Below, in pieces: positions 2-61,042 of a stretch of 64,000 bases of DNA (position 1 is its first letter; every line of letters begins with the position of its first letter). The stretch comes from Azonexus sp. R2A61 (GTDB taxonomy: Bacteria > Pseudomonadota > Gammaproteobacteria > Burkholderiales > Rhodocyclaceae), in contig NZ_JACBFO010000002.1 in assembly GCF_021401135.1 (NCBI RefSeq), positions 496,001-560,000 of the forward strand, written 5' to 3'. Below the pieces are notes generated by a model. The model was not told the DNA's origin and did no database searches. It saw only the letters and a program-made list of their open reading frames with translations. The position numbers and the translations under genes were made by a program.

Positions 2-808
2 GAACGCGAGCACGCCGAAATGGCCGCCGCACTGATCATGTCGGACGACAACCGCTTCAACCGCGTCGGCGCGCGCATCCACGATGTGACGCATGCGCAC
101 TGGCGGCAGGACCTCGACATTCTGGTCGGCATCGCCGGCAGCCGCCTGCCTTTCATCACCTTGCCCAAGCCCTGCAGCGCCGCCGATGTGGCGGCGCAAA
201 TCGCCGCATTGCGCGAAATCGAAGCCAAACACGGCGTCGACCGCAGGATTCCGGTACACGTGCTGATCGAAACCCACGGTGCGCTGCGCGAAGTCTGGCA
301 GATCGCCGCGCTGGACGGTGTCGAATCGCTCGATTTCGGCCTGATGGATTTCGTCTCCGGCCACCACGGCGCGATTCCCGGCAGCGCCATGAAGAGCCCC
401 GGCCAGTTCGACCATCCGCTGATCGCCCGCGCCAAGTGCGAGATTGCCGCCGCCGCGCTGGCCAACGGCGTCGTGCCGTCGCACAACGTCACCACCGAAC
501 TGAAGGACATCGACACCATCCGCAACGATGCGCTGCGCGCCCGCCGCGAATTCGGCTATCTGCGCATGTGGAGCATTCACCCGAACCAGATCGTCGCCAT
601 TGTCGAAGCGATGCGTCCGGACTTCTCCGAAGTCCAGGCCGCCACGGAAATCCTGATCGCCGCCCAGGACACCGACTGGGGCCCGATCCAGCATGCCGGC
701 AAGCTGCACGACCGCGCCTCCTACCGCTACTACTGGGAACTGCTCGACCGCGCCCAAGTCACCGGCATGGACATTCCGCTCGCCGCCAAGGAACGCTTTT
801 TTGCCTGA
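2..808 (+). CDS. HpcH/HpaI aldolase / CitE-like citrate lyase family protein (5' partial)
   Basis: The reading frame is open from the window edge, so the true start lies upstream; the first internal ATG is at position 20. The protein resembles the CitE/malyl-CoA lyase-like class of TIM-barrel C-C lyases acting on acyl-CoA or 2-oxo acid substrates. Seen features are a strand ending in HVLIETHGALREV, with the Glu typical of the metal site, then a DFGLMDF segment and a C-terminal SIHPNQ motif, all in family order. The substrate cannot be told from sequence. One copy of the dispersed 10-mer lies inside the gene at 236-245. The next gene begins about 50 bases downstream on the same strand. Confidence 0.75.
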   Translation, partial: EREHAEMAAALIMSDDNRFNRVGARIHDVTHAHWRQDLDILVGIAGSRLPFITLPKPCSAADVAAQIAALREIEAKHGVDRRIPVHVLIETHGALREVWQIAALDGVESLDFGLMDFVSGHHGAIPGSAMKSPGQFDHPLIARAKCEIAAAALANGVVPSHNVTTELKDIDTIRNDALRARREFGYLRMWSIHPNQIVAIVEAMRPDFSEVQAATEILIAAQDTDWGPIQHAGKLHDRASYRYYWELLDRAQVTGMDIPLAAKERFFA

Positions 809-810
809 TC

Positions 811-826
811 CTGCGGTCGACCGCAG
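811..826. repeat. Palindromic copy of dispersed 10-mer (CTGCGGTCGACCGCAG)
   Basis: This is a perfect 16-base inverted repeat in the short gap between the lyase stop and truC. It holds the word TGCGGTCGAC on both strands and is followed by an A-rich stretch. As a hairpin it could act as a weak transcription punctuation element, but there is no T-run. Confidence 0.85.
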
Positions 827-857
827 GGAAAGCGCGATTTTCCCCGACACAGCGCCG

Positions 858-1577
858 TTGACCGTGCTGTATCGCGACGAACACATCGTCGCCATCGACA
901 AGCCGGCCAACCTGCTCGTCCATCGCTCGGAAATCGACCGCCACGAAACGCGCTTCGCGATCCAGATCCTGCGCGACCAGATCGGCCATAAGGTCTGGCC
1001 GGCGCACCGCCTCGACCGCGGCACCTCGGGGGTCCTGCTGTTCGGGCTGAGCCCGGAAATCGCCAGTACGCTCGGCCGGCAGTTCGAGGCCGGCACGGTG
1101 ACCAAGCGCTACCTTGCGGTCGTCCGCGGCCATCCGCCGGCACAGGGCGAAATCGACCATCCGCTAAGCCGTCAGCGCGACGATTACGAATTTCGCGGCG
1201 AACGCAGCAGCGACGAGGCACAGCCGGCGCTGACCCGCTATCGCCGGCTGGCGACCATCGAACTGCCGGTCGCCATCGACCGCTATCCGACCAGCCGCTA
1301 CGCCCTGCTCGAGCTCGAACCGGTGACCGGCCGCCGCCACCAGCTGCGCCGCCACCTCAAGCACATCGCCCATCCGATCATCGGCGATTCGACCTACGGT
1401 AAGGGACGGCACAACCGCCATTTCGTGGCCGAACTGGCCTGCGGGCGCCTGCTGCTGGCCTGCACCCGTCTCGGTTTCCGGCATCCGGCTGACAGCCGGG
1501 AAATCGCGGTCGACGCGCCGCTGACCGGCGAATTCGCCGATCTGCTGGCACGTTTCGGGTGGTCGGCGGCTCAGTAA
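858..1577 (+). CDS. truC: tRNA pseudouridine(65) synthase TruC
   Basis: RluA-type pseudouridine synthase; TruC modifies U65 of tRNA-Ile and tRNA-Asp. The sequence follows E. coli TruC closely from the N-terminus (YRDEHIVAIDKPANLLVHRS, then RHETRFAIQ), through the catalytic-Asp motif HRLDRGTSGVLL, to the RNA-binding end GRRHQLRRHLKHIAHPIIGD and a C-terminal RFGW. It is about 239 residues, slightly shorter than the E. coli protein. No ATG lies near the expected start. TTG at 858 or GTG at 864 fit the alignment, and neither has a clear ribosome site. The 3' end overlaps the convergent CBS gene by 7 bases. Confidence 0.9.
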   Translation: MTVLYRDEHIVAIDKPANLLVHRSEIDRHETRFAIQILRDQIGHKVWPAHRLDRGTSGVLLFGLSPEIASTLGRQFEAGTVTKRYLAVVRGHPPAQGEIDHPLSRQRDDYEFRGERSSDEAQPALTRYRRLATIELPVAIDRYPTSRYALLELEPVTGRRHQLRRHLKHIAHPIIGDSTYGKGRHNRHFVAELACGRLLLACTRLGFRHPADSREIAVDAPLTGEFADLLARFGWSAAQ

Positions 1578-2011: not shown

Positions 2012-2101
2012 GGTTTTGTCTCCTGTGGTTATCGTCGTGGATAAAGCGAACCTTGCGTACACGCAGACAAGCATGTGCGCCAAATGTTCTGACTTTATGA
2101 C

Positions 2102-2111
2102 GTCGACCGCA
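2102..2111 (-). repeat. Dispersed 10-mer copy (TGCGGTCGAC on minus strand)
   Basis: An intergenic single copy of the dispersed word in the gap between the CBS gene start and the end of the periplasmic-binding-protein gene. The rest of this 174-base gap shows no other clear signal. Confidence 0.8.
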
Positions 2112-3844: not shown

Positions 3845-3908
3845 GACATCCAGAAATCGAAAGACCGGACTATAGCGCATGCCCCCGGGATCATTCCCTG
3901 GCGCATGC

Positions 3909-3918
3909 GTCGACCGCA
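3909..3918 (-). repeat. Dispersed 10-mer copy (TGCGGTCGAC on minus strand)
   Basis: A single intergenic copy just after the stop of the nitronate monooxygenase-like gene and upstream of the porin gene. Confidence 0.8.
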
Positions 3919-5345: not shown

Positions 5346-6503
5346 ATGTTCCGCACATCGCATCCGCTCTGGCTGGCCGGTTTCCGGCCCTTCTTCCTGC
5401 TCGCCGCGCTGGCCGGGCTGGTTCTGCCGCCGCTCTGGGCGATGATTTTCACCGGCTGGACGGCGTCGACCGCAAGTCCGCTCGATCCGCTGCGCTGGCA
5501 CGCCCACGAAATGTATTACGGCTTCGGCTGGGCGGTACTCGGCGGTTTCCTGCTCACCGCCAGCAAGAACTGGGTCGGCATCCGCGGCTATCACGGCGGC
5601 GTGCTGATCGCCCTGAGCTTCGCCTGGCTGCTCGAACGCCTGGCGTTGTCGGCCGGCGCCGGCTGGCCGCCGGTCTGGCTGGCGATCGCCGCTTTCGCCT
5701 TCCTCGGCAGCATCGCCATGCTGCTGGTGTGGACGCTGCTGCGTTACCGCCGGCAGGACAGCTACCGCGACAATCTGTTGTTCGTCGTTGCCCTGCCCGC
5801 CTTCCTGTTTGCCAAGTATCAACTGTTGTACGGCGATTTCGCCGGCGGTGCGGCGATGACGCTGGCCCTGTTCCGGCTGGCTTTCCTGGTCATGCTCGAA
5901 CGCACGCTGACCCAGTTCATGAAAGCTGCCTGCCAGACCGACATCCTGCGCACGCCCTGGCTGGACCTGCCGATCAAGCTGCTCGGCCTGAGCCTGGCCG
6001 GCGTTTTCTGGCTGCCGGCGACGTGGACCGCAGGCCTGTCGCTGCTGCTCGCCGGCCTGTTGCTGATCCGCCTGCCGTTCTGGCGCCCCGACCGGGCCTG
6101 CCGCCGGCTCGACGTCGGCATCATGTTCGTCGGCTATCTGGCGATTGTCGGCCAGTTGCTGCTCGAGGCCTGGACGACGCTGGCCGGCCCGGCCTGGATC
6201 GGCGCGCTGCCGACGCACGTATTCAGCTTCGGCGCGATGGGCTGCGTGATTCCGGCGATGATCGTGCGCATCGCCAACGGTCATACCGGGCGAAAAGTCG
6301 TGTTTTCATCGGTCGACCGCAGCGTGCTGTGGCTGATGCTGGGCGCGCTGCTGATCCGCGTCGGCTTGACCCAGCTGGCGCCGGCCCGCTATGCGTGGTG
6401 GATCGGCCTGGCCGCCCTGTGCTGGCTGGCCGCCTTCGGCCTGCTGCTGGTGCGTTACGCGCCGGTGCTGATGCAGCCGCGCATCGACGGCCGCGAACAC
6501 TGA
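5346..6503 (+). CDS. nnrS: NnrS family haem/copper-containing membrane protein
   Basis: A polytopic inner-membrane protein of 385 residues with about 12 hydrophobic segments. It has the NnrS signature: N-terminal HPLWLAGFRPFFLLA and HAHEMYYGFGWAVLGGFLLTA. NnrS proteins are linked to resistance to nitrosative stress and are often controlled by NO-responsive regulators. Upstream at about 5295-5306 lies a short inverted repeat, TTGCC-GT-GGCAA, but its spacing is wrong for an FNR/NnrR box. Two dispersed 10-mer copies fall inside the gene (5465-5474 and 6312-6321), the first in a frame that reads Ser-Thr-Ala instead of the usual Ala-Val-Asp. Confidence 0.88.
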   Translation: MFRTSHPLWLAGFRPFFLLAALAGLVLPPLWAMIFTGWTASTASPLDPLRWHAHEMYYGFGWAVLGGFLLTASKNWVGIRGYHGGVLIALSFAWLLERLALSAGAGWPPVWLAIAAFAFLGSIAMLLVWTLLRYRRQDSYRDNLLFVVALPAFLFAKYQLLYGDFAGGAAMTLALFRLAFLVMLERTLTQFMKAACQTDILRTPWLDLPIKLLGLSLAGVFWLPATWTAGLSLLLAGLLLIRLPFWRPDRACRRLDVGIMFVGYLAIVGQLLLEAWTTLAGPAWIGALPTHVFSFGAMGCVIPAMIVRIANGHTGRKVVFSSVDRSVLWLMLGALLIRVGLTQLAPARYAWWIGLAALCWLAAFGLLLVRYAPVLMQPRIDGREH

Positions 6504-6898: not shown

Positions 6899-7357
6899 AT
6901 GTTCGATGAAGACGACAAGATCGACTTCGGCGCCCTGCCGGCCGAAGTCGATCACCTGCTCCAGGAAGGCGTTGCCGCCCATTTCAGCGACCGGGCGCTG
7001 GCCGAGCGCCTGTTTCTCGCCGCACTCTCGCTGGCGCCGGACGCCCTGCCGGCACACCGCTGCCTGGTCAAACACTACAACCGTTGTCGACAATTCGACA
7101 GGGCGTTGACCGCCGCGCGCGCCTGGGTCGGCGCTGCCGCCCGCCAGGCCGGTTTGTCCGACAACTGGCTGCAATGGAAGGCCGCGCCGGGCTATGCGCT
7201 GGCCGCGCTGAAGGGGCTGGCCTTCATCCATTTACGGGCCGGCGAACCGGACAAGGCCGACGCGATGATCGCCCGCGTCGTCGCGATGGACCCCGAGGAT
7301 GCCGTCGGCGCTTCGGTGGTGCTGGCGCTGCTCGACGAAACCCGGCTGGCGATCTGA
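6899..7357 (+). CDS. Tetratricopeptide-like repeat protein, function unknown
   Basis: A 152-residue, probably cytoplasmic protein. It has helix pairs spaced as in TPR motifs: RALAERLFLAALSLAPDALPAH, RQFDRALTAARAW, and ALAALKGLAFIHLRAGEPDKADAMIARVVAMDP. The N-terminus is acidic. Such proteins are scaffolds for protein contacts. No partner is suggested by the neighbours. The ATG at 6899 lacks a strong ribosome site; the frame extends upstream but the extra residues look non-native. Confidence 0.6.
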   Translation: MFDEDDKIDFGALPAEVDHLLQEGVAAHFSDRALAERLFLAALSLAPDALPAHRCLVKHYNRCRQFDRALTAARAWVGAAARQAGLSDNWLQWKAAPGYALAALKGLAFIHLRAGEPDKADAMIARVVAMDPEDAVGASVVLALLDETRLAI

Positions 7358-7371
7358 AAAAAGGCGGATTG

Positions 7372-7387
7372 CTGCGGTCGACCGCAG
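7372..7387. repeat. Palindromic copy of dispersed 10-mer (CTGCGGTCGACCGCAG)
   Basis: A perfect 16-base palindrome between the convergent stops of the TPR gene and the cytochrome gene. It lies right beside the terminator hairpin of the cytochrome gene. Confidence 0.85.
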
Positions 7388-7396
7388 CTGCACAAG

Positions 7397-7421
7397 AAAA
7401 ACCGCCCCGTTGCCGGGGCGG
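7397..7421 (-). terminator. Rho-independent terminator of the cytochrome c gene
   Basis: An 8-base-pair GC stem (CCGCCCCG at 7402-7409, CGGGGCGG at 7414-7421) with loop TTGC. Read on the minus strand it is followed by five T residues. It sits 25 bases past the cytochrome stop codon. Confidence 0.85.
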
Positions 7422-7445: not shown

Positions 7446-9527
7446 TCAGTAACGGGCGTCGGACGGCTTCGGATCCTTCGGCCAGTCCTTGACCTTGTCC
7501 GGGAAGTCCGGCCGCGGCTGGTGGCTGAAGTATTCGGCCACATCGACCGATTCCTGGTCGCTGAGGCCGCCCTGGCCGAGCGGGAACTTGCCGTGGAAGC
7601 CGATCGGCATGTTGCGCTTGACGAAGGCCGCGGCGGTGTAGGTGCGGGCCATGCCGGCGCCGATGTTGAACGATTCGTCGCCCCACAGCGGCGGATAGAC
7701 CATCTTGCCGGCGGCATTGCGCAGGCCTTCGCCGTTGTCGCCGTGGCAGACCGCGCACTGGTCGGCGTAAATCTTCTTGCCGTTTTCCGGATCGGGCACG
7801 ATGCTGCGGTCGATCTTGCCGATGCCGCGCCCGGCCACCTTGTCTTCCGGCTTGGTCTCGCGCTTCATCCAGTCGAAGTAGGCAACCATCGCCTTCAGGT
7901 CCGGCGAATCCTTGGCCAGCGGCTTGCCGTTCATCGAGCGGCGGAAACAGCCGTTGATCCGGTCTTCCAGCGTGATCACCTTGCCCGCCCGCGCGCCGTA
8001 GCTGGGGAAGAAGGCGGAGACGCCGACATACGGCGAGCCATCGGCAACGGTGCCGGCGTTCAGGTGGCAACTGCTGCAGTTGAGCTGATCGCCAACGTGT
8101 TCCGGCAGCAGGTCCTTGGTTTCCAGGTTCAGGCGCATGCCGCGCACCAGTTGATCGGCGTTGGCTTCCTTCAGCATGTCGGCCAGGCGCGGCGTGTCGA
8201 ACTTGCTCGAATCGGTGGTCTGCGGATCGAGTGCGGCACGCATTTTTGCCACCAGCGCGGCGTCGACCGCAGGTGCGCCGTCGCCCCAGCTGGCGCGGAC
8301 GAAGCTCAGGATTTCAGCCAGTTCCTGATCGCTCAGGCGGGCGAAGGCCGGCATCGTGAAGACGCGCGGATGGGCGGCGGTGGCCGCGGTCTGGCCGCCG
8401 GTCAGCATGATGTGCACCAGCGTCGAGGCGTCCTTCGACAATACCGTCGGATTGCCGGCCAGCGTCGGGAAGATTTTCGCCACACCGCCACCGTCGGCGC
8501 GGTGACAGTCGCCGCAGAACTGGATGTAACCGAGACCGCCGCGGCTGCTGAACAGCGTGTCCGGCACGTGGGCAACCACCGCCGGCTGCGGTGCACCGGC
8601 CGGCAGCGGCTTGTCGTACGGCCCCGGCGGCAGCGACTTGAGGTAGGTGGCGACGGCGACCAGATCGGCATCGCTGAAATGCTGCGTGCTGTGCATGATT
8701 ACTTCGGTCATGTTGCCGGAGGCGGTGGCAAAGCGGTTCTGCCCGGTCTTCAGGAACAGCGCCGTGTCGTCGACCGTCCACAGGTTGCGCAGACTGAGTG
8801 CGCGCCAGTGCTCGACCGTCTCGCCGGCCAGGAAATAGTCGCCCTTGCTGCCGGCGTCGCTCATCGCCTTCTCCTGGAATAGCAGGCCGCGCGGCGTATG
8901 GCAGGCGCCGCAGTGGCCGAGGCCCTGCACCAGATAGGCGCCGCGGTTCCAGGTTTCGTCCTTGCCGGTGTTCGGCTGATAAGGCGTGTCGTCGAGGAAC
9001 AGCCAATTCCAGATCGCCAGGCCCCAGCGCATGCTGAACGGCCACTTCATTTCATCCGGCTTGTTCGACTGCTTGACCGCTTCGAGGCCCTGCATCAGGT
9101 AGGCGTAGAGCGCCTGCATGTCTTCGCCGGTCATCTTGGCGTAGGACGGATAAGGCATCGCCGGATACAGGTTGTGCCCGTCGGCGGCGACGCCCTTGCG
9201 CATCGCGCGGTCGAACTGCTCGAAGCTGTAGTTGCCGATGCCGGTTTCCTTGTCCGGCGTGATGTTGGTCGAGTAAAGCTTGCCGAACGGCGTTTCCAGC
9301 GCCCGGCCGCCGGCCATCGGCGTGCCTTTTTCGGTCGTGTGGCAGGCCACGCAGTCGCCCAGCTGGGCGAGGTAGCGACCGCGTTCGATGGTCGACGCAT
9401 CGGCCGTCGTCGCCGCGGCCGTGCCGCCCAACAACGACAGGCCGAGCAGCGCGCCGCCGGCCAGCCGGCGCACGATGGCGCCGACCGTCGGCCAGTCGCG
9501 CCGATTTCCCTTGATTTGGTATTGCAT
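7446..9527 (-). CDS. Five-haem c-type cytochrome: AdhB-like trihaem part fused to TsdA/SoxA-like dihaem part
   Basis: A 693-residue exported cytochrome. After a twin-basic, hydrophobic signal region (cleavage near residue 40) there are five CxxCH haem sites at about residues 59, 206, 338, 484 and 591. The first three and their surroundings (GDCVACHT, HCGACHTPRG, CGDCHRADG) match the cytochrome subunit of membrane alcohol/gluconate dehydrogenases. The last two (NCSSCHLNAGT, then DRINGCFRRSMNGKPL, then CAVCHGDNGEG) match dihaem thiosulfate dehydrogenase/SoxA-like proteins. Cys527 in INGCF could be a haem ligand. GGGAGAA supports the start. No dehydrogenase subunit adjoins. The electron donor is unknown. 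Confidence 0.85.
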   Translation of the reverse strand: MQYQIKGNRRDWPTVGAIVRRLAGGALLGLSLLGGTAAATTADASTIERGRYLAQLGDCVACHTTEKGTPMAGGRALETPFGKLYSTNITPDKETGIGNYSFEQFDRAMRKGVAADGHNLYPAMPYPSYAKMTGEDMQALYAYLMQGLEAVKQSNKPDEMKWPFSMRWGLAIWNWLFLDDTPYQPNTGKDETWNRGAYLVQGLGHCGACHTPRGLLFQEKAMSDAGSKGDYFLAGETVEHWRALSLRNLWTVDDTALFLKTGQNRFATASGNMTEVIMHSTQHFSDADLVAVATYLKSLPPGPYDKPLPAGAPQPAVVAHVPDTLFSSRGGLGYIQFCGDCHRADGGGVAKIFPTLAGNPTVLSKDASTLVHIMLTGGQTAATAAHPRVFTMPAFARLSDQELAEILSFVRASWGDGAPAVDAALVAKMRAALDPQTTDSSKFDTPRLADMLKEANADQLVRGMRLNLETKDLLPEHVGDQLNCSSCHLNAGTVADGSPYVGVSAFFPSYGARAGKVITLEDRINGCFRRSMNGKPLAKDSPDLKAMVAYFDWMKRETKPEDKVAGRGIGKIDRSIVPDPENGKKIYADQCAVCHGDNGEGLRNAAGKMVYPPLWGDESFNIGAGMARTYTAAAFVKRNMPIGFHGKFPLGQGGLSDQESVDVAEYFSHQPRPDFPDKVKDWPKDPKPSDARY

Positions 9528-9623
9528 GCTGTTTCTCCCTTTTCATCTGGTTCGCACCGAGTCTAGGAGAAGCCGCTGCCGGCGCCCATTCGGTCGTCCG
9601 GCTAGGGAAATAATCGAAACCGA

Positions 9624-11039
9624 TTAGTCGACCGCAGCAGCGGATGCCGCCGAGCGCTGGGCCAGGGCCGTCCGCAAGGCCGCCACCACCGCCGCCCAGC
9701 CGCCGCCGGCCGGCTGGCGGAACAGGCGCATGGCGCCCGGGTACCACGGGCTGTCGTCGCGCCCGGTGAGCCAGCGCCAGTCGGTCTTGTAGTCCGGCAG
9801 CAGCAGCCAGACCGGCTTGCCGAGCGCGCCGGCGAGATGGGCGACCGCGGTATCGACGGCGATCAGCAGATCGAGCTGGCTGACGACGGCCGCGGTATCG
9901 GCGAAATCGCCGACCCGGGTGCCGAGATCGAGCAAGGGGAACGGCGGATCGGCCAGTTCGTCCTCGCCCTGACCTTTCTGCAGGCTGACGAAGCGCACCC
10001 CCGGCACGTCGCCGAGAGGCGCCAGCACGGTAAGCGACGGCAATGAGCGCTCGCCATCGTTCTCGAAACCGCGACTGCCTTTCCAGGCCAGACCGACGCG
10101 CAGCCGGCCGTCGGCCGGGCCGAGCGCCGCCGACCATTGCGCGATGCGTGCGGCATCGGCCTGCAGATAGGGCAATTCGGCCGGCACGCGGTCGACGCGC
10201 GTGGCGAAGTGAAATGGCAGGCTGAGCGGCGGCGCCCAGTAATCCCAGACGACACCGTCCGGTACGGGATCGCCGGGCGCCAGCGCGTCGTCGACGCCGT
10301 CCAGACCGGCCGCGAACAGGGTTTTCAGCGCCGGATGGCAAAGCACCGAGACACGCGCCGCACCGGCCTGTTTCAACTGCGCGGCGTAGCGGCAGAACTG
10401 GATCATGTCGCCGTGCCCCGCTTCCAGGCCGATCAGCAGCGACTTGCCGGCCAGCGCCTCGCCACGCCAGCGCGGCAGGCCGAGCTCGGCATCGAGCCGG
10501 GCGTACCAGTCGCGCGCTTCGAGCCGCCGCCAGCCCTCCTCCCATCGGCCCTGACGCAGCAGCAGGTAGGCCAGGTTGAAGCTGGCGCCGGCGTGACCGG
10601 GGTCGAGTTCGAGGGCGGTCCGGTAGCAGCGTTCGGCCTCGTCTTCGCGCTGCTGGCAGGTCAGCAACGCCCCGTAGTTGGACCACAGGCCGGGCACCTG
10701 CGGGTGACGCTGCAGGCTGTCGCGGTACACCGCCTCGGCCTCGGCAAATTGCCGCCGGTCGACCAGAAAAGCGCCGAAGTTGATCGCGATCTGGGCGATT
10801 TCCGGCGCCAGCGCCCGCGCCTGCCGGTAGGCCGCCGCCGCCTCGTCCGACGCGCCCGAGGCTTCCAGCGCGAAAGCCAGGTTGGCATGCAGTTCGGGCT
10901 GCATCGGCGCCCATTCGAGCGCGGCGCGGAAAGCTGCCGCGGCGCCCGGCGCGTCGCCGATGCCTAAACGCCGGTTGCCCTCGGCGAACAGTTCGTTCAG
11001 CGCGGTGGCGGCGTCAAGGGAATCGTCGGTGGTGGACAT
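9624..11039 (-). CDS. TPR-repeat protein with C-terminal GT9-like (heptosyltransferase-type) domain
   Basis: 471 residues. The N-terminal half (about 15-190) is a run of tetratricopeptide repeats (for example AFRAALEWAPMQPELHANLAFALE, ERCYRTALELDPGHAGASFNLAYLLL). The C-terminal half has glycosyltransferase-family-9 features: VGLAWKGSRGFENDGERS, VRFVSLQKGQGEDEL, and the closing VSQLDLLIAVDTAVAHLAGALGKPVWLLLP nucleotide-sugar site. This architecture is common in proteins that glycosylate flagellin or other proteins, by analogy only. Its last residues Ala-Val-Asp are encoded by a dispersed 10-mer copy (9627-9636) that ends at the stop codon. Confidence 0.75.
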   Translation of the reverse strand: MSTTDDSLDAATALNELFAEGNRRLGIGDAPGAAAAFRAALEWAPMQPELHANLAFALEASGASDEAAAAYRQARALAPEIAQIAINFGAFLVDRRQFAEAEAVYRDSLQRHPQVPGLWSNYGALLTCQQREDEAERCYRTALELDPGHAGASFNLAYLLLRQGRWEEGWRRLEARDWYARLDAELGLPRWRGEALAGKSLLIGLEAGHGDMIQFCRYAAQLKQAGAARVSVLCHPALKTLFAAGLDGVDDALAPGDPVPDGVVWDYWAPPLSLPFHFATRVDRVPAELPYLQADAARIAQWSAALGPADGRLRVGLAWKGSRGFENDGERSLPSLTVLAPLGDVPGVRFVSLQKGQGEDELADPPFPLLDLGTRVGDFADTAAVVSQLDLLIAVDTAVAHLAGALGKPVWLLLPDYKTDWRWLTGRDDSPWYPGAMRLFRQPAGGGWAAVVAALRTALAQRSAASAAAVD

Positions 11040-11065
11040 GGCGGCATTTTAGGCCGCCTGCCGCG

Positions 11066-11075
11066 GTCGACCGCA
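11066..11075 (-). repeat. Dispersed 10-mer copy within near-palindrome CCGCGGTCGACCGCAGG
   Basis: An intergenic copy between the AAA+ ATPase stop and the TPR/GT9 start, followed by an A-rich run as at several other copies. Confidence 0.8.
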
Positions 11076-12859: not shown

Positions 12860-12869
12860 TGCGGTCGAC
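12860..12869 (+). repeat. Dispersed 10-mer copy with degenerate partner (12896-12905)
   Basis: The exact word is followed by GCCGGAAAAATG and then, 27 bases on, by an inverted one-mismatch copy (GTTGACCGCA). The pair lies in the divergent promoter region between the AAA+ gene and rlmF and could fold into a long imperfect hairpin. Confidence 0.75.
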
Positions 12870-12964
12870 GCCGGAAAAATGCGGAAAATCAGCCGGTTGA
12901 CCGCAAATGCCTTTGTCGCGCTTGCGACACGTGGGACAATCGCGGCCCCTTTCCGGAAAACGCC

Positions 12965-13921: not shown

Positions 13922-13944
13922 AAATCTGAAAAATCCGCCGATCG

Positions 13945-13960
13945 CTGCGGTCGACCGCAG
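13945..13960. repeat. Palindromic copy of dispersed 10-mer (CTGCGGTCGACCGCAG)
   Basis: A perfect 16-base palindrome between convergent genes, 23 bases after the rlmF stop. Confidence 0.85.
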
Positions 13961-13983
13961 GATTCGCCGGATTTCCGGGCAAC

Positions 13984-14551: not shown

Positions 14552-15421
14552 GTGAATGCCTTGTCCGATCTTCTCGACCGTCTCGCCGTCCTGCCCCAAT
14601 ACCTGCTGCCGAAACAGGCGCTGACCGTCCTCGCCGGACGGCTGGCCTCGGCGCATGCCGGGGCGCTGACCACCTCGGTCATCCGCTGGTTCATCGGCCG
14701 TTACGGCGTGGACATGAGCGAAGCGGCCAATCCGGACCCGGCCGCCTACGCCAGTTTCAACGATTTCTTCACGCGGGCGCTGAAGGCCGATGCCCGGCCT
14801 TTCGCCGACAGCGATTTGCTGTGTCCGGTAGACGGCGCGATCAGCCAGTTCGGCAACATCGAACGCGACCAGATTTTCCAGGCCAAGGGCCACCGCTACT
14901 CGACTGCCGCACTGCTCGGCGGCGACCGTGAGCTTGCCGCGCAATTCGATAACGGCAGCTTCGCCACGCTCTATCTCAGCCCGCGCGACTACCACCGCAT
15001 CCACATGCCCTGCGCCGGCCGGCTGACCCGGATGATTCACGTGCCCGGCGCCCTGTTCTCGGTCAATCCGACCACCGCCCGCGGCGTTCCCGGCCTGTTC
15101 GCGCGCAACGAACGCGTCGTCTGCGTGTTCGACACCGAGGACGGGCCGTTCGCGCTGGTCCTGGTCGGCGCGACGATCGTCGGCAGCATGGCCACCGTCT
15201 GGCAGGGCACGATCAATCCGCCGCGCCCCGGCGTCGTTCGCGAATGGCGTTACGCCGGCGATACTGCGGTCGACCTGGCCAAGGGGCAGGAAATGGGCCG
15301 TTTCCTGCTCGGTTCGACGGTCGTCCTGCTGTTCCCGAAGGATCGCCTGGCCTTCAACCCGGCGTGGGCGCCGGCCCGGCCGGTCCGCATGGGCGAAGCG
15401 ATGGGATCGCGGCCGGCATGA
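14552..15421 (+). CDS. psd: Phosphatidylserine decarboxylase proenzyme
   Basis: A 289-residue inner-membrane-associated enzyme that makes phosphatidylethanolamine from phosphatidylserine. The large-subunit motifs [46 protein letters not shown] and LFARNERVV match the E. coli enzyme. The self-cleavage site that creates the pyruvoyl group is [11 protein letters not shown], cut before the Ser of LGST. GTG at 14552 is the likely start; TTG at 14561 is possible. The stop overlaps the next gene by 4 bases (ATGA). A dispersed 10-mer copy at 15265-15274 encodes Ala-Val-Asp. Confidence 0.93.
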
Positions 15422-17349: not shown

Positions 17350-17359
17350 TGCGGTCGAC
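17350..17359 (+). repeat. Dispersed 10-mer copy followed by CGGCAAAACCGG
   Basis: An intergenic copy between acnB and its terminator hairpin. The A-rich flank and the GATTTTCG that follows resemble the flanks of the copies at 45275 and 55337. Confidence 0.8.
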
Positions 17360-17385
17360 CGGCAAAACCGGCCGATTTTCGCAAA

Positions 17386-33938: not shown

Positions 33939-33945
33939 AGCGAAC

Positions 33946-41365: not shown

Positions 41366-41382
41366 ATACGGCAATGCCGTAT
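41366..41382. promoter_or_regulatory. Operator-like inverted repeat ATACGGC-AAT-GCCGTAT
   Basis: A perfect 7-base inverted repeat with 3-base centre, 10 bases before the toxin start. It is the natural binding site for the helix-turn-helix antitoxin (autoregulation), as in other higBA modules. Confidence 0.7.
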
Positions 41383-41451
41383 TTTTTGAAGGTAGAATCG
41401 GCGAATAACCCTGCCTCATCTTTTCACCATCCAATCCCATAAGGGCTCCCC

Positions 41452-42198: not shown

Positions 42199-42214
42199 GC
42201 GGGATCAATTGACC

Positions 42215-42607: not shown

Positions 42608-42619
42608 GCTTTTGCCGCC

Positions 42620-44404: not shown

Positions 44405-44414
44405 AGTGTTTCCC

Positions 44415-44442
44415 ATTATTTGCAAAATAGACGTTTTGTCAA
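44415..44442 (-). promoter_or_regulatory. Promoter of the AbiEii-type module (TTGACA-N16-AATAAT)
   Basis: On the minus strand TTGACA (44437-44442) and AATAAT (44415-44420) are 16 bases apart, within a visibly AT-rich patch. The start point would fall about 4 bases before the antitoxin ATG, so the transcript is nearly leaderless. Confidence 0.65.
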
Positions 44443-44573
44443 CAATAGGAAACATATTTAGCCTTCCGGTGGATACTGGAATGCTGGCTTGCCTTCTGAC
44501 ACGAGCGCAGCACACGCCTTGCCATCCCCTTTCGCGTTAACATGCGCTTTCTCTTTCCATCCCCCGCCACCCC

Positions 44574-45274: not shown

Positions 45275-45284
45275 TGCGGTCGAC
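45275..45284 (+). repeat. Dispersed 10-mer copy followed by CGTGAAAATCGG
   Basis: The first of two copies between the convergent stops of nrtR and yaaA. Its flank resembles the copy at 55337-55346. Confidence 0.85.
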
Positions 45285-45298
45285 CGTGAAAATCGGGC

Positions 45299-45322
45299 AA
45301 TTCTGCGGTCGACCGCAGAATT
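45299..45322. repeat. 24-base perfect palindrome around the dispersed 10-mer
   Basis: AATT, then CTGCGGTCGACCGCAG, then AATT: the longest perfect palindromic copy in the window. It lies at the meeting point of two convergent genes, where it could serve as a bidirectional terminator, as paired uptake sequences do in Neisseria. Confidence 0.9.
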
Positions 45323-45342
45323 CCGGCAATTTCCGGGCAGCC

Positions 45343-46116: not shown

Positions 46117-46227
46117 GGGCGGATGGCGGAATGGGCGATGCCGGCCATTTTAGCGGAGGCGCCGCCGCTTCGCCGCGCGCCAGGATCGTCCCGCTCCGAT
46201 CAACCGGAAAAATGCGGCAAACCCACG

Positions 46228-46237
46228 GTCGACCGCA
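46228..46237 (-). repeat. Dispersed 10-mer copy in CACGGTCGACCGCAG
   Basis: An intergenic copy in the divergent yaaA/ClpX-like promoter region; an A-rich run lies on its left. The rest of this 164-base gap shows no other clear signal. Confidence 0.8.
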
Positions 46238-48489: not shown

Positions 48490-49833
48490 ATGAGCGGCAA
48501 CGCCGACTGGCTGGCCCGCAGTCAGGCTGCGGTCTGGCATCCCTGCACGCAGATGCGGCATCACGCCGATGCCGCATCGCCGGCCCACCTGCCGCTGATC
48601 CCGATCGCCCGCGGCGAAGGGCCGTGGCTGTACGATTTCGACGGCCGGCGCTACCTCGACGGCATCAGTTCGTGGTGGACCAACCTGTTCGGCCACGCCA
48701 ATCCGCAGATCAATGCCGCCCTGCGCGACCAGCTGGACAGCCTCGAACACGCGATGCTGGCCGGTTTCACGCACCGGCCGGTGGTCGAGCTTTCCGAGCG
48801 TCTGTCGGCGTTGACCGCAGGATCGCTCGGCCACGCCTTCTACGCCTCCGACGGCGCCTCGGCCACCGAGATCGCGCTGAAGATGAGCTTCCACTACTGG
48901 CGCAACGTCGGCCGCCCGGAAAAGGCGGAATTCCTCTGCCTGGCCGGCAGCTACCACGGCGAAACGGTCGGCGCGCTGGCGGTCACCGACGTGGCCATCT
49001 TCAAGGATGCCTACGCGCCGCTGGTTCGCCACGCCGCACAGGTGCTGCCGTCGCCCGATTTCCGCCTGGCCGAGCCGGGCGAACCCCCGGCCGACGTCGC
49101 CCGCCGCGCCGCCGCCGGTCTTGCCGACTGGCTGGAGAAGAACGGCGAACGCACTGCCGCGCTGATCGTCGAGCCGCTGGTCCAGGGCGCCGCCGGCATG
49201 GCCATGTACGATCCGGAATACCTGCGTCTGGCCCGCCAGCTGTGCGACCAGTACGAGGTGCATCTGATCTGCGACGAAATCGCCGTCGGCTTCGGCCGTA
49301 CCGGCAGCTTCTTCGCGCACGAGCAAGCGGCCATCCGGCCCGACCTGATGTGCCTGTCGAAAGGCATTTCCGGCGGCTACCTGCCGCTGTCGGTGGTACT
49401 GAGCAGCGACACCATCTACGCCGCTTTCCTCGACGATTCGGTGGCCCGCGCCTTCCTGCATTCGCATTCCTACACCGGCAATCCGCTGGCCTGCCGGGCG
49501 GCGCTGGCGACGCTGGACATTTTCGAGCGCAACGACGTTATTGCGGTCAACCGGCCCAAAGCGCAAAAAATCGCCGAGCGGCTGGCGCCGCTGGCCGGAC
49601 ATCCGCAAGTCCGCCACCTGCGCCAGCGCGGCATGATCGCCGCCTTCGACGTGGCCACCGACGACCCATACTTCTCCCGCCGCTTCTACCGTGCCGCGCT
49701 CGACGCCGGCGCGCTGCTCCGGCCGATCGGCAACACCGTCTACCTGATGCCGCCCTACGTCATCGACGAGGCCGGCATCGAGCACCTGGCAATGGCCATC
49801 GAACGCGGCCTGGACGCCGCCCTGGCAGCATGA
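48490..49833 (+). CDS. bioA: Adenosylmethionine-8-amino-7-oxononanoate aminotransferase
   Basis: 447 residues. A PLP enzyme making 7,8-diaminopelargonate in biotin synthesis. Seen features are VWHPCTQM at the N-terminus, FYASDGASATEIALKM, SYHGETVGALAVTD, the PLP-aspartate in LICDEIAVGFGRTG, and the Schiff-base Lys in CLSKGISGGYLPLS. It is separated from bioFHCD by 3 kb holding a FUSC-type membrane protein and an MFS/MarR pair. Confidence 0.94.
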   Translation: MSGNADWLARSQAAVWHPCTQMRHHADAASPAHLPLIPIARGEGPWLYDFDGRRYLDGISSWWTNLFGHANPQINAALRDQLDSLEHAMLAGFTHRPVVELSERLSALTAGSLGHAFYASDGASATEIALKMSFHYWRNVGRPEKAEFLCLAGSYHGETVGALAVTDVAIFKDAYAPLVRHAAQVLPSPDFRLAEPGEPPADVARRAAAGLADWLEKNGERTAALIVEPLVQGAAGMAMYDPEYLRLARQLCDQYEVHLICDEIAVGFGRTGSFFAHEQAAIRPDLMCLSKGISGGYLPLSVVLSSDTIYAAFLDDSVARAFLHSHSYTGNPLACRAALATLDIFERNDVIAVNRPKAQKIAERLAPLAGHPQVRHLRQRGMIAAFDVATDDPYFSRRFYRAALDAGALLRPIGNTVYLMPPYVIDEAGIEHLAMAIERGLDAALAA

Positions 49834-52916: not shown

Positions 52917-54089
52917 ATGACTCCCTCTCTCGAATCGTCGCTCGCCGCCGAACTGGCCGAGCTCAGTGCCGCCGGCCTGCGCCGCCGCCGGCGGGTGCTC
53001 GACGCCCCCTGCGGGCGGATGGCTGCGGTCGACGGCCGCCAGCGGCTAAATTTCGCCAGCAACGACTATCTCGGCCTGGCCGGCGATTCGGCGCTGGCCC
53101 GTGCAATGGCCGATGGCGCCCTCGCCTGGGGGGCCGGCAGCGGCGCCGCCCACCTGGTCAGCGGCCACTTGGCGCCGCATGACGCACTGGAACGGGAGAT
53201 CGCGGCATTCACCGGCTTTGCCCGGGCGCTCACCTTCTCGACCGGCTACCTGGCCAATCTGGCGGTGACGCCGACGCTGGCCGGCCGTGGCGACGCGGTG
53301 TTCGCCGACAAGCTCAACCACGCCTCGCTGATCGACGCGATGCAACTGGCCAAGGCCGGCGGCGCCGACACCCAGCGTTATCCGCACAACGACGTCGCCG
53401 CGCTCGACCGGCTGCTTGCCGCCAGCCGCGCCCGACGCAAGCTGATCGTCACCGACACGGTGTTCAGCATGGACGGCGATCTGGCCCCGCTGCCGCTGCT
53501 CCTCGAACTGGCCGAACGCCACGATGCCTGGCTGGTCATCGACGACGCCCACGGCTTCGGCGTGCTCGGCCCGCAGGGACGCGGCAACCTGGCGCATTTC
53601 GGCCTGCCGGCATCGCCGCGCATCGTCCTGATGGGCACGCTGGGCAAGGCCGCCGGCGTCGGTGGCGCCTTTGTTGCCGGCTCGGAAACCGTCATCGACT
53701 ATCTGCTCAACCGCGGCCGCAGCTATATCTTCACCACGGCCGCACCGCCGGCGGTAGCCTGCGCGCTGTCGGCCAGCCTCCGACTGATCGGCGACGGCGA
53801 CGCACGCCGCCGCCAGCTGTTCGCCAACATCGCCCGCCTGCGCGACGGCGCCGCCGGCCTGCCGTGGACGCTGCCGGCCTCGCCGACCGCCATCCAGCCG
53901 CTGATCGTCGGCGACAATGCGGCCACCCTGGCGCTGTCGCAGGCGCTCTGGGAACGCGACCTGTGGGTGCCGGCGATCCGCCCGCCGACAGTGCCCAAGG
54001 GCACGGCCCGCTTGCGCATCTCGCTGTCCGCGGCGCATACGGCCGACGACATCGACCGGCTGCTGGCCGCGCTGAAGGAATTGACATGA
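52917..54089 (+). CDS. bioF: 8-amino-7-oxononanoate synthase
   Basis: 390 residues. A PLP enzyme joining pimeloyl-ACP and alanine. Landmarks are [52 protein letters not shown], and the PLP-Lys in [14 protein letters not shown]. The first gene of a tight bioF-bioH-bioC-bioD operon joined by 4-base overlaps. The dispersed 10-mer at 53024-53033 reads Ala-Ala-Val-Asp. Confidence 0.95.
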
Positions 54090-54793
54090 GTCGCCCGATC
54101 TTCCTGCCCGGCTGGTGCCTCGGCCGCGGCCCGCTGCAGCCTGCGGTCGACGCCCTTGGCGGTACGTTTTTCGATCTGCCCGGCTATCGCGACACACCAC
54201 CGCAAAGCAGCTTCGACGCCGCCGTGGCCGACTTCGCCCGGCGCCTGCCGGTGGGCAGCACGCTGGCCGGCTGGTCGCTCGGCGCACAACTGGCGCTGGC
54301 CGTCGCCGCACGCCATCCGGACAAGGTCGGCCGCCTGCTGCTGATCGCCGGTACCGCCTCCTTCGTCCAGCGCGACGGCTGGCCGGATGCCATGCCGCCG
54401 GCGACGCTCGCCGAATTCACGCAGCACATGCTGGCCGATCCGGAAGCCTTGCTGCCGCGCTTCGTCGGCGGCTTCAACCGAGGCGACGCCCAGGCCCGGA
54501 CGGTCACCCGCAGCCTGCTGGAAATGGCCGATCCGCGACCGTCGACCGCAACTCTCGGCGACGGCCTGAGCTGGTTGCGCGAGGTCGACCTGCGCCCCGA
54601 ACTGGCCGCGGTCACCGCGCCCGTATTGCTGGTCCACGGCGCCGCCGATCCGCTGATGCCGCTCGCCGCCGCCGAAGCGCTGGCGGCGGCGCTGCCGACC
54701 GCCCGCCTGGCGCCCCTGGCCGACTGCGCACACGCTCCTTTCCTGTCGCGCCCCGACGACTTCCTCGCCGTCGTGCGTCCCTTCCTGGCATGA
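54086..54793 (+). CDS. bioH: Pimeloyl-ACP methyl ester esterase
   Basis: 235 residues of the alpha/beta-hydrolase fold. The nucleophile Ser is in LAGWSLGAQLALAVA, the Asp in VLLVHGAADPLMPL and the His in DCAHAPFLSRPDDF. It removes the methyl group placed by BioC, freeing pimeloyl-ACP for BioF. The PGWCLGRGPLQPAVD opening is typical of BioH. It contains two dispersed 10-mer copies (54142-54151, 54541-54550). Confidence 0.93.
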   Translation: MSRPIFLPGWCLGRGPLQPAVDALGGTFFDLPGYRDTPPQSSFDAAVADFARRLPVGSTLAGWSLGAQLALAVAARHPDKVGRLLLIAGTASFVQRDGWPDAMPPATLAEFTQHMLADPEALLPRFVGGFNRGDAQARTVTRSLLEMADPRPSTATLGDGLSWLREVDLRPELAAVTAPVLLVHGAADPLMPLAAAEALAAALPTARLAPLADCAHAPFLSRPDDFLAVVRPFLA

Positions 54794-55551
54794 GCAGACC
54801 GGCCAAGACCCGCATCCGCCAGTCCTTCGAGCGTGCCGCGCCAAGCTACGACGCGGCCGCCGAGGTACAGCGGCGGATCTGCGCGCAACTGGCCGGCGGC
54901 CTGCCGGCGCAAGCCCCGGCACGCTGGCTCGATGCCGGTTGCGGCACCGGTCATGCGCTTGGCCTGCTCGGCCACCGCTATCCGGACAGTTGCGCCATCG
55001 CCCTCGACCTGGCCGGCGCCATGCTCGCCCGCATCGCGCCGCCCTGCGTGCGCATCGCCGGCGATCTGGAAGCCCTGCCGCTGGCCGATGCCAGCCTCGA
55101 CCTGTACTGGTCCAGCCTGGCCGTCCAGTGGTGCGATCTGCCGCGCGCGCTCGCCGAGGCGGCACGCGTCCTGCGCGGCGGCGGCGCCTTGCGGCTGGCC
55201 AGCCTGGGGCCGGCCACCTTCCATGAACTGCGCACGGCCTTTGCCGGCATCGACGACTATCGCCATACGCTGGCCTTCCACGACGCTGCGCAGATCGCCC
55301 GGCTGGCCGGCGAGGCCGGGTTTTCCGGCGTGCGGCTGCGGTCGACCGTGGAAATCGCCCATTTTCCCGATCTGCACGCCCTGTTGCGCTCGGTCAAGGC
55401 CGTCGGCGCCAACCAGCTCGGTGCCGGCCGGCGCACCGGCCTGATGGGCCGCCGCGCGCTGGCCCGCGTCGAAGCGGCCTACGAGGCATTGCGCACGCCG
55501 GCCGGCCTGCCGCTGAGTTACGACGTGATCCTTCTGGAGGCGACGCGATGA
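54790..55551 (+). CDS. bioC: Malonyl-ACP O-methyltransferase
   Basis: 253 residues. A SAM-dependent enzyme that methylates malonyl-ACP to start pimelate synthesis. Landmarks are RQSFERAAPSYDAAAEVQ at the start, WLDAGCGTGHALGLLG in motif I, LYWSSLAVQWC and GALRLASLGPATFHELRTAF. It overlaps bioH and bioD by 4 bases each. The copy of the dispersed 10-mer at 55337-55346 sits in an unusual frame (Arg-Ser-Thr-Val). Confidence 0.94.
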   Translation: MSRPAKTRIRQSFERAAPSYDAAAEVQRRICAQLAGGLPAQAPARWLDAGCGTGHALGLLGHRYPDSCAIALDLAGAMLARIAPPCVRIAGDLEALPLADASLDLYWSSLAVQWCDLPRALAEAARVLRGGGALRLASLGPATFHELRTAFAGIDDYRHTLAFHDAAQIARLAGEAGFSGVRLRSTVEIAHFPDLHALLRSVKAVGANQLGAGRRTGLMGRRALARVEAAYEALRTPAGLPLSYDVILLEATR

Positions 55552-56207
55552 ACCGCGCCTATTTCATCACCGGCACCGATACCGAAGTCGGCAAGACCTT
55601 CGTCACCTGCGCGCTGCTGCACCGCGCCCGCGCCGCCGGCCTGCGCGCCGCCGGCATCAAGGCGCTGGCGGCCGGCACCGACGAAAACGGCATCAACGAC
55701 GATGTCGACCGCATCCGTCGCGCCGCCGACGTGGCGCTGCCCGACAACATCCTGAATCCCTACTGCTTCGCGCCCGCCATCGCGCCGCACATCGCCGCCG
55801 CCGAAGCCGGCGTGCACATCGACTTCGCACGCATCGCCGACGCCGTGGCCGTGGCCCGGCCGCAGGCCGATCTGCTGCTGGTCGAAGGTGCCGGCGGTTT
55901 TCGCATTCCGCTGGGCGTCGACCGCGACAGCGCCGATCTTGCGGTCCACCTGGGTTTGCCGGTGATTCTGGTCGTCGGCATGCGCCTGGGTTGCCTCAAC
56001 CACGCGCTGCTCACCGCCGAGGCCATCCTGGCGCGGCAACTGCCGCTGGCCGGCTGGGTGGCCAACACGATCGATCCCGGGATGTCGCGTTTTGCCGAGA
56101 ATCTGGCCAGCCTGCGACAGTCGCTGCCGGCCCCCTGCCTCGGCGTCGCTCCCCACCGGCCGGACGATCCGGCAGCAGCGGCGGATGCGCTCGTGCTACC
56201 GGCCTAA
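55548..56207 (+). CDS. bioD: Dethiobiotin synthetase
   Basis: 219 residues. An ATP-dependent carboxylase closing the ureido ring. The P-loop is FITGTDTEVGKTFVTCALL; LLVEGAGGFRIPL and VILVVGMRLGCLNHALLTAEAI follow. Its end overlaps the convergent Hpt gene by 12 bases. bioB, for the last step, is not in the window. Confidence 0.95.
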   Translation: MNRAYFITGTDTEVGKTFVTCALLHRARAAGLRAAGIKALAAGTDENGINDDVDRIRRAADVALPDNILNPYCFAPAIAPHIAAAEAGVHIDFARIADAVAVARPQADLLLVEGAGGFRIPLGVDRDSADLAVHLGLPVILVVGMRLGCLNHALLTAEAILARQLPLAGWVANTIDPGMSRFAENLASLRQSLPAPCLGVAPHRPDDPAAAADALVLPA

Positions 56208-59640: not shown

Positions 59641-59698
59641 TCCGTACCGTCGCCGGCCGGCGACGGAAGCTGCACAAGCCGGTTTACCGTGCGACAAT

Positions 59699-59725
59699 GC
59701 CCGCCTTTCGGCGGGCTTTGTCTTT
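59699..59725 (+). terminator. Rho-independent terminator of the parvulin gene
   Basis: Stem GCCCGCC (59699-59705) with GGCGGGC (59710-59716), loop TTTC, then TTTGTCTTT. It lies just before the next gene's ribosome site, GGAGGGG. Confidence 0.85.
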
Positions 59726-59743
59726 GCGGAGGGGAAAACGGCA

Positions 59744-61042
59744 GTGTTCGGCAGTCTCAAGACCTGGTTGACGGGAAACGCCGGCGCACCGGAAACCGCA
59801 GCGGCCGGCGAAACGACGCCACCGCCACGCAGCGAGTTCCTGGCCGGCGAAACCATTCACGACCGGAACGGCCGCCCGCAAGCCCACCTGTTCCGGCTGC
59901 GCGGCCAACCCGCGCGGGACGGCACGTCGGCCGCCCGCCTGCGCGATTTCGACCGCATCCTGCTCGACACGCTGAACGCCGCACCGGAAACCTGGCAACA
60001 GACCCCCGCCTATATTCCAATCCAGGCCGCCAGCCTGGACCTGCCTGCGGTCGACGCCCTGCGCGGTGAAAAAATCACGCTGTTGTTGCACCTGACAGCG
60101 GACGACCGGCCGGATACGGCCCGCCTCCGCGAACTGCGCGAACGCGGCATGCGGATCGGCTTGTTCCGCCAGCCGGACAACGCCGACTTCGCTGCACTAA
60201 TGCAGGATTGCGACTGCGCAGCAATCGACGCCGCCGACTGCGAACCGGTCAGCATCCGCGATTTCTCGGCTGCCGTTCGTGCGACCCGCAGCGACCCGCC
60301 CAGCCTGCTGATCTGCAACCTGGACAGCCTCGACGAGTACCGGCTCGGCCATCAATGGCATTACGACCTGCTACACGGGCATTTTGCGGTCAACCTGCCG
60401 CCGCGGCCGGAAACCGTCGGCGATCCGCACCGCATGATCCTGCTCGAACTGATCCGGCTGGCCCAGGGCGACGCCGACAACGCCAGCATCGCCGATGCGA
60501 TGAAACAGGACCCGATGCTCGGTTTCCGGCTGCTGCGCTATCTGAACTCCCCGCTGCTCGGCCTCGACCGCCAGATCGACTCGCTGAATCAGGCGCTGAC
60601 CGTGCTCGGCCGGCAACAACTAACGCGCTGGCTGGCCGTGCTGCTGTTCTCGGTACGCGAACCGGATTTCGCCGACTGGTGGCTGGTCGAAAGCGCACTC
60701 ACCCGCGGCCGGATGATGGAACTGCTCGGGCAAAACAACGGTAGCAGGCACTGCGACGCGCTGTTCCTGACCGGCATCTTCTCGCGCCTCGACCGACTGC
60801 TGCGCCAGCCGCTGGCTGCCGCACTCAAGGCCATGCCGCTGACCGTCCCCATCCGCGCCGCGCTGCTCGCCCGCAGCGGCCCGTACGCCAAGCTGCTCGC
60901 GCTGGCCGAAACCGCCGAAAGTTTCGACACCGAGCGCATCGACACCGCAGCCCGGGAAGCCGGTCTGGATGCCGCCCAGGTCAACCGCGCCTTGCTCGCC
61001 GCCACCGCCTGGACCAGCGACGTGACGGAGCACTGGACGTGA
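59744..61042 (+). CDS. HDOD-domain signalling protein with degenerate EAL-like N-terminal part
   Basis: 432 residues from a GTG start. The C-terminal 230 residues are an HDOD domain (LLELIRLAQGDADNASIADAMKQDP, GFRLLRYLNSPLLGL, QALTVLGRQQLTRWLAVLLF). The N-terminal half resembles a YuxH/EAL-like fold (DRNGRPQAHLFRLRG, then LRERGMRIGLFRQPDN) with no EAL catalytic motif. Such proteins are regulatory adaptors in c-di-GMP or motility control. It overlaps the cyclase gene by 4 bases. Confidence 0.82.
   Translation: MFGSLKTWLTGNAGAPETAAAGETTPPPRSEFLAGETIHDRNGRPQAHLFRLRGQPARDGTSAARLRDFDRILLDTLNAAPETWQQTPAYIPIQAASLDLPAVDALRGEKITLLLHLTADDRPDTARLRELRERGMRIGLFRQPDNADFAALMQDCDCAAIDAADCEPVSIRDFSAAVRATRSDPPSLLICNLDSLDEYRLGHQWHYDLLHGHFAVNLPPRPETVGDPHRMILLELIRLAQGDADNASIADAMKQDPMLGFRLLRYLNSPLLGLDRQIDSLNQALTVLGRQQLTRWLAVLLFSVREPDFADWWLVESALTRGRMMELLGQNNGSRHCDALFLTGIFSRLDRLLRQPLAAALKAMPLTVPIRAALLARSGPYAKLLALAETAESFDTERIDTAAREAGLDAAQVNRALLAATAWTSDVTEHWT

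Follow-up and report, generated by a model that had tools for sequence, protein, structure and literature searches.

Does a short word that recurs throughout a stretch of bacterial DNA mark that DNA for uptake? The question is raised by 64,000 nucleotides of the Azonexus sp. R2A61 genome (hereafter the window; positions 496,001 to 560,000 of contig NZ_JACBFO010000002.1), in which a first-pass annotation noticed a repeated 10-base word, TGCGGTCGAC, and likened it to a DNA uptake sequence. We followed the word through the whole genome (G000; 3,726,503 bases in 13 contigs) and through comparison genomes, denoted by other G numbers. The results support that interpretation: judging from sequence comparisons, we put at roughly 0.86 the probability that a self-specific DNA uptake sequence has this word as its core, and neither a count at the level of a Markov model nor codon bias alone accounts for it.

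Abundance, anatomy and placement of the element

On both strands together, the window holds 36 matches to TGCGGTCGAC, lying at 32 loci between positions 236 and 60055, whereas dinucleotide shuffling, repeated 100 times, left 0.28 on average and never more than 3. The enrichment that prompted the first-pass annotation is thus confirmed, as is its chance expectation of about 0.3, with 32 loci in place of the 31 it reported. Our own gene calls also return its figure of 13 intergenic loci. Over the whole genome (3.73 Mb) the word occurs 1,256 times (647 + 609 by strand), and the reversed word, our control, 12 times (5 + 7). Under an order-3 Markov model of 464 kb, 138 copies were observed against 5.85 expected, so the count lies far above expectation; no other 10-mer with at least 20 copies has a higher enrichment ratio. 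The runner-up is the G-to-A variant TGCGGTCAAC, with 39 copies observed and 1.8 expected. The density is 0.34 per kb genome-wide for the 10-mer and 0.39 per kb, in 669 kb, for the combined form TGCGGTCRAC.

The real element is about 30 bp long and consists of TGCGGTCRAC, 14 bp, and then an A/T tract. We aligned the flanks of 111 non-palindromic copies in the 464 kb and found a second common element, a run of A/T bases at +25 to +30, counting from the start of the core. In the 669 kb, 73% of the 260 copies have four A/T bases beginning precisely at +26, against a background of 2.1% anywhere. A weaker first tract lies at about +15 to +20, and the 111 copies lean weakly toward A/T at +17/+18, toward T at -3 and toward C/T at -1, with C preceding TGCGG in 46% of them; nothing else in their flanks is conserved outside the core and the A/T tracts. 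The A-rich run noted earlier is real but had been placed too close, at 3-6 bases; the start of the conserved tract is 14-15 bases beyond the word. We scored a tract as present when the four bases at +26 to +29 were A/T, and we defined a strict two-part pattern as TGCGGTCRAC - 14 bp - RAWWWT. The window has 43 strand copies of TGCGGTCRAC, 33 of them with the tract and 21 with the strict pattern; genome-wide, the strict pattern has 734 matches and its control 0. Six other motif-rich genomes show the tract as well, with A/T fractions at +27 and +28 of 0.82 to 1.00 (60-80 kb samples, 11-21 copies each), and most of the six also show the first tract around +15 to +20.

Imperfect copies reveal which bases of the core matter. 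The tract is kept in 102 of 191 single-mismatch copies of TGCGGTCGAC when the change falls at position 1, 2, 3 or 8 (21/33 for changes of G2, 5/12 for changes of C3), and in 2 of 105 when it falls at positions 4-7, 9 or 10. Because the tract is nearly lost with changes at these last positions, the bases mattering most are GGTCnAC, inside the preferred TGCGGTCRAC.

Of the 220 copies counted in 549 kb, 162 lie in coding and 57 in intergenic DNA, with 1 straddling the two; the densities are 0.35 per kb for coding and 0.62 per kb for intergenic DNA. Coding copies concentrate in three of the six frames (80, 44, 31, 4, 2 and 1 copies, or 155 of the 162 in three). When synonymous codons were shuffled within genes (100 times), the number of coding copies averaged 12.7 with a maximum of 23, against 162 observed, and the number of two-part patterns averaged 0.59 with a maximum of 3, against 69 observed; codon bias thus fails as the sole cause. 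The same 549 kb contains 15 perfect 14-bp palindromes formed by overlapping inverted copies: 4 touch genes, 8 lie in convergent gaps, 2 in tandem gaps and 1 in a divergent gap. Convergent genes therefore flank 8 of the 11 intergenic palindromes, though convergent gaps are 36 of 231. The first-pass annotation had described four palindromes at gene ends in the window, and all four are indeed intergenic and close to gene ends, with convergent genes flanking three of them (Table 1). Overlapping inverted pairs between convergent genes probably double as transcription terminators.

Maintenance and distribution among relatives

We compared sites of this genome with their aligned counterparts in other species, using 10-mers of like G+C as controls. 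In the motif-rich G256, 13 of 23 sites are intact (controls 16%, flanks 72% identical), and in the motif-rich G258, 9 of 16 (controls 10%, flanks 71% identical). In the motif-poor G290, at a similar flank identity of 73%, 0 of 35 sites are intact (controls 18%). Pooling the rich partners (22/39) against G290 (0/35) gives a Fisher p of 1.4e-8 with sites treated as independent. A looser gap rule gives 14/24, 9/16 and 1/35 for G256, G258 and G290, respectively. The core is better conserved than the flanks in the two rich pairs (identity 0.89 and 0.83), and the A/T tract reaches 0.82 in each; against G290 the core (0.67) and the tract (0.61) both fall below the flanks. Sites lost in G290 show substitutions or small indels, 22 of the 35 aligning without gaps, and no clean insertion of an element was found among the 35. 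In G291, which is motif-poor but closer (flanks 83%), 4 of 12 sites are intact, with controls at 36%.

The comparison with related genomes indicates that the motif depends on lineage. In 249 genomes of the family, the 10-mer has 66 to 1,256 copies in 8 members of the same genus and 0 to 70 in the 241 others; because the latter reach 70, the 10-mer alone fails to set apart the poorest members of the genus. Dechloromonas sp. SB18, with 50 copies, is within the range seen outside the genus. For the two-part pattern, of 76 genus genomes, 33 have at least 70 matches, 12 have 14 to 41 and 31 have 0 to 11, while a reversed two-part control has 3 matches summed over all 76. In 368 genomes of the class outside the family there are at most 2 matches each, and 47 genomes have any. 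By these two counts, of the 10-mer within the family and of the two-part pattern outside it, the motif is restricted to the genus, and within the genus it is bimodal, abundant in some species and scarce in others. On a FastTree tree of Tex proteins from 56 of 60 sampled genomes, read for its topology without branch support values or a formal test, motif-rich and motif-poor species are interleaved. From this pattern we infer one old motif that was lost repeatedly, the alternative being repeated gain.

We also looked for other dialects in motif-poor relatives: 80-kb samples of G264, G284 and G292 contained no comparably enriched word. A weak lead comes from the G264 sample, in which TGGCGGTCA and GGTGGCGGT are enriched 6-7 fold (13 copies against about 2); these words could belong to a repeat gene or to another dialect.

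Competence genes, rival explanations and known uptake systems

The genome has the competence genes comEC and dprA, a match of ComEA type, and genes for a type IV pilus (T4P). ComEC is 783 aa long with Competence, DUF4131 and Lactamase_B domains, DprA is encoded, and one of the HHH_3 matches is consistent with ComEA. T4P minor pilins are encoded by fimT-, pilV-, pilW- and pilE-like genes at C6:822-828 kb, and there is a PilA-like gene; the names are our own reading. The pilE-like product matches Pfam ComP_DUS (PF16732) at 5e-22. Seventeen solved-structure sequences match the pilE-like product; they are pilins, including PilE (4noa), and none is named ComP.

If the word is an uptake sequence, a surface DNA receptor, probably a T4P minor pilin, would bind the core, and the A/T tracts, lying downstream by one to two helical turns, would aid DNA bending or melting for pull-in. 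ComEA, ComEC and DprA would then bring the DNA to recombination. Because tagged fragments would be preferentially taken up and recombined, alleles carrying the tag would spread by molecular drive; tags would accumulate wherever tolerated, synonymous codons included, and would decay once specificity or competence was lost.

Several observations weigh against this interpretation. All 10 homologues of the pilE-like protein tested, from motif-rich and motif-poor relatives alike, match ComP_DUS, so the match is not diagnostic. Motif-rich species differ in the organization of their minor-pilin clusters. Of 26 motif-rich genomes (at least 70 copies), 21 have an open frame of at least 770 aa that matches ComEC in full, as do 22 of 34 motif-poor genomes, several of the others among these 60 being incomplete assemblies; because 22 of 34 motif-poor genomes keep a full ComEC, loss of comEC accounts for loss of the motif partly at best. 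The motif-rich G256 retains 573 copies despite a split comEC. Presence of the motif on the Tex tree is very patchy. The density of 0.34 per kb is below the approximately 1 copy per kb given for the uptake sequences of Haemophilus and Neisseria in an excerpt of PMC1626085, though the order of magnitude is close. In the 464 kb, the 30 single-mismatch forms taken together are more numerous than the perfect word (210 copies against 138); the order-3 model predicts about 128 of these 210, and TGCGGTCAAC, itself part of the consensus, contributes 39. Finally, indels occur at 13 of the 35 sites compared with G290, 7 of the 13 intergenic, against 7% of controls.

Two of these points have further detail at the loci concerned. 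The comEC of G256 lies on two contigs (G256:C10:860001-867122 and G256:C17), one contig end carrying TniB and a Mu-type transposase, which suggests interruption by a Tn7- or Tn5053-like insertion and is compatible with a recent break. The gene is also broken in the motif-poor G250, G289 and G280. The matches in G250 (G250:C33:109525-144033) and G289 (G289:C1:2218607-2251879) are in two pieces about 34 kb and 32 kb apart, which might reflect a large element within the gene; the smaller piece spans 28-29 of the 270 profile positions. As for the pilins, we rejected the idea that the motif is tied to one minor-pilin type: motif-rich genomes have several layouts, and motif-poor genomes, too, carry pilins of the ComP_DUS and GspH types. 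Several layouts and very divergent pilins are found within this one genus, as if the cluster were exchanged as a module.

Among other explanations, the least improbable, though still unlikely, is that the word is the site of a chromosome-organizing or recombination protein (Chi-, KOPS-, Noc- or SlmA-like). More than 1,000 sites and a two-part structure, which suggests a protein that contacts and bends DNA, would suit such a role. Close relatives should then share the sites, yet 43 of the 76 genus genomes have 0 to 41, and no more than 2 copies are seen in any of the 368 genomes outside the family; nor is there strand bias (113 against 107 in 549 kb, 647/609 genome-wide, replichore orientation not considered). 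Slightly less plausible again is a word associated with a methylase or restriction enzyme and kept by modification or repair, in the manner of HIP1 of cyanobacteria, a very abundant short palindrome of coding and non-coding DNA that is not known to be tied to competence. The core does contain the palindrome GTCGAC and can form the 14-bp palindrome, a type I restriction gene lies in an island of this genome (see below), and abundance across coding and non-coding DNA is shared with HIP1. HIP1 is palindromic, however, and has no oriented downstream tract, whereas just 15 palindromes occur among the 220 strand copies here, the strict positions reach beyond GTCGAC, and an oriented A/T tract at a fixed distance would have no role in modification or repair.

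Self-copying by a short mobile repeat, such as a repetitive extragenic palindrome (REP) or a miniature inverted-repeat transposable element (MITE), might be proposed from the strong consensus, the high copy number and the indels at 13 of 35 sites in the comparison with G290. We regard it as very improbable and reject it on the flanks and on the alignments to G290: conservation stops at the core and the A/T tracts, the alignments contain substitutions and small indels (22/35 ungapped) with no clean insertions, and 162 of 220 copies are inside genes, 155 of them in three of six frames. The favored frames, together with inverted pairs that lie mostly between convergent genes, could also recall a mixture of codon or amino-acid bias and terminator hairpins. 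That account is scarcely credible, given that most copies are single and within genes, and codon bias as a full explanation is refuted by the synonymous shuffling.

An uptake sequence, the reading we prefer, invites comparison with the systems already described. Uptake sequences are known from two bacterial families only, Neisseriaceae and Pasteurellaceae, according to an excerpt of a 2025 paper (PMC12616744). Like the Pasteurellaceae uptake signal sequence (USS; Hin AAGTGCGGT, Apl ACAAGCGGT(C)), the element is one-sided, with a short core and then two downstream A/T tracts, and it likewise has no strand bias, a preference for non-coding DNA and inverted pairs (excerpts of PMC1626085 and PMC12616744). 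It has TGCGGT in common with Hin and GCGGTC in common with the Apl 10-mer. The likeness to the Pasteurellaceae core remarked on in the first-pass annotation therefore holds for the hexamer TGCGGT and not for the strictest bases, which are GGTCnAC here against GCGG, the bases given as mattering most in the USS (excerpt of PMC12616744). Unlike the USS core ANNNGCGGT, the consensus TGCGGTCRAC lacks the A and continues into CRAC, and the requirement for an inner core GCGG does not hold. The A/T tracts also lie farther from the core, being strongest at +25 to +30, the density is lower, the inverted pairs can overlap into a 14-bp palindrome, and the organisms are different.

Like the DNA uptake sequences (DUS) of Neisseriaceae, the element has a high copy number (thousands for DUS, more than 1,000 here) and inverted pairs, linked to terminators in DUS and probably here too; overlapping dyad pairs are reported for Simonsiella DUS (excerpts of PMC3630211). 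Neisseriaceae, whose receptor is ComP, are probably of the same bacterial class, and a ComP_DUS-family pilin is encoded here. Unlike DUS, the element has no invariant CTG core, and it has an A/T motif where none flanks DUS (excerpt of PMC1626085). Set against the features of uptake sequences in the excerpted account of Redfield et al., the element agrees in orientation, pairs, placement and A/T segments, at about one third of the density. A copy number far above chance, its sharing among related genomes and the competence machinery encoded here are also traits that uptake sequences in general would lead one to expect. Set against USS and DUS as excerpted from Helsem et al., it is neither, combining USS-like letters and architecture with other strictest bases.

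The balance tips modestly toward a third, independent family of uptake sequences in a betaproteobacterial genus of Rhodocyclaceae type, with the architecture of the gammaproteobacterial USS and GCGGT, whose specificity determinant would lie outside the exchangeable minor-pilin cluster and which would have been lost repeatedly in that genus. Among the matches listed in our literature searches, none linked uptake sequences with Rhodocyclales, Betaproteobacteria or Dechloromonas, and those printing TGCGGTCGAC concerned unrelated subjects by title and abstract. A third case, if true, would turn the evolution of specificity, the reading of the tag by its receptor and the need for A/T tracts into comparisons within one genus. 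The same comparisons would address whether selection favors the tags or biased uptake produces them as a side effect. A third case would also help to explain which DNA moves among these bacteria and why foreign islands stand out.

Elements of the window and motif-free DNA

Table 1. Uptake-like elements and the motif-poor stretch in the window. Plus and minus give the strand; a period marks features listed with neither.
Positions	Strand	Feature
216..245	-	Uptake-like element, coding; core 236-245
796..841	.	Overlapping inverted pair, palindrome 812-825, A/T tracts on both sides, intergenic
2082..2111	-	Uptake-like element, intergenic
3889..3918	-	Uptake-like element, intergenic core
5445..5474	-	Two-part element, coding
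6292..6321	-	Element with A/T tract, coding
7357..7402	.	Overlapping inverted pair, palindrome 7373-7386, in convergent gap
8242..8271	-	Two-part element, coding
9607..9636	-	Element with A/T tract; core at 3' end of gene 9624-11039
11046..11075	-	Element with A/T tract, intergenic
12860..12889	+	Two-part element, intergenic
12876..12905	-	TGCGGTCAAC-core element, intergenic, inverted relative to 12860 copy
13930..13975	.	Overlapping inverted pair, palindrome 13946-13959, in convergent gap
15265..15294	+	Uptake-like element, coding
17350..17379	+	Two-part element, intergenic; site intact in G291
20138..20167	+	Two-part element, intergenic
20153..20182	-	Element with A/T tract, intergenic, inverted relative to 20138 copy
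20870..20899	-	Two-part element, coding; G291 keeps core without A/T tract
23731..23760	+	Two-part element, coding
25663..25692	+	Uptake-like element, coding
27025..27054	+	Element with A/T tract, coding
27860..27889	+	Two-part element, TGCGGTCAAC core, coding
28748..28777	-	Two-part element, coding
28944..28973	+	Two-part element, coding
29189..45250	.	Motif-poor stretch holding 2 copies; remainder of window predicts 13.7
37305..37334	-	Two-part element, coding, within motif-poor stretch; site intact in G291
38704..38733	+	Two-part element, TGCGGTCAAC core, intergenic; site intact in G291
45275..45304	+	Uptake-like element, intergenic
45288..45333	.	Overlapping inverted pair, palindrome 45304-45317, in convergent gap
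46208..46237	-	Element with A/T tract, intergenic
48790..48819	-	TGCGGTCAAC core without full A/T tract, coding
49542..49571	+	Two-part element, TGCGGTCAAC core, coding
53024..53053	+	Two-part element, coding
54142..54171	+	Element with A/T tract, coding
54521..54550	-	Element with A/T tract, coding
55337..55366	+	Element with A/T tract, coding
55684..55713	-	Uptake-like element, coding
60046..60075	+	Two-part element, coding
60385..60414	+	TGCGGTCAAC core without full A/T tract, coding
63294..63323	-	TGCGGTCAAC core without full A/T tract, coding

The motif-poor stretch listed in Table 1 is probably exchanged DNA, and its similarity to other genomes fits acquisition from a motif-poor lineage. 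Between 29.9 and 39.7 kb the window is 90-95% identical to the motif-poor G291, while neighboring parts are 75-89% identical, and between 35.4 and 39.7 kb it is 93% identical to Dechloromonas SB18. The NadE gene sits in this possibly transferred stretch, and the nearest named NadE records are those of Dechloromonas sp. SB18 (97%) and of metagenome-assembled genomes assigned to Rhodocyclales (81%), Accumulibacter (78%) and Azonexus (77%). Given that location, the closest name may differ from that of the host; by this one gene a Rhodocyclaceae-type betaproteobacterium is the probable host, and a member of the Pasteurellaceae is very unlikely.

Elsewhere in the genome, the 40 kb at C6:120001-160000 hold 0 copies against 15.7 expected, with low G+C (0.555 and 0.580). 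Uptake sequences should be scarce in foreign DNA acquired recently, and the empty stretch agrees with this. The corresponding Poisson value of 1.6e-7 is an unfair test, because the stretch was picked for being empty. The 10 larger frames scanned include a plasmid gene of KfrA type, a Mu-type transposase, a subunit of a type I restriction enzyme, a Cus-type sensor and RND efflux genes, which are of metal-efflux type, and a subtilase. The stretch is a foreign-looking genomic island.

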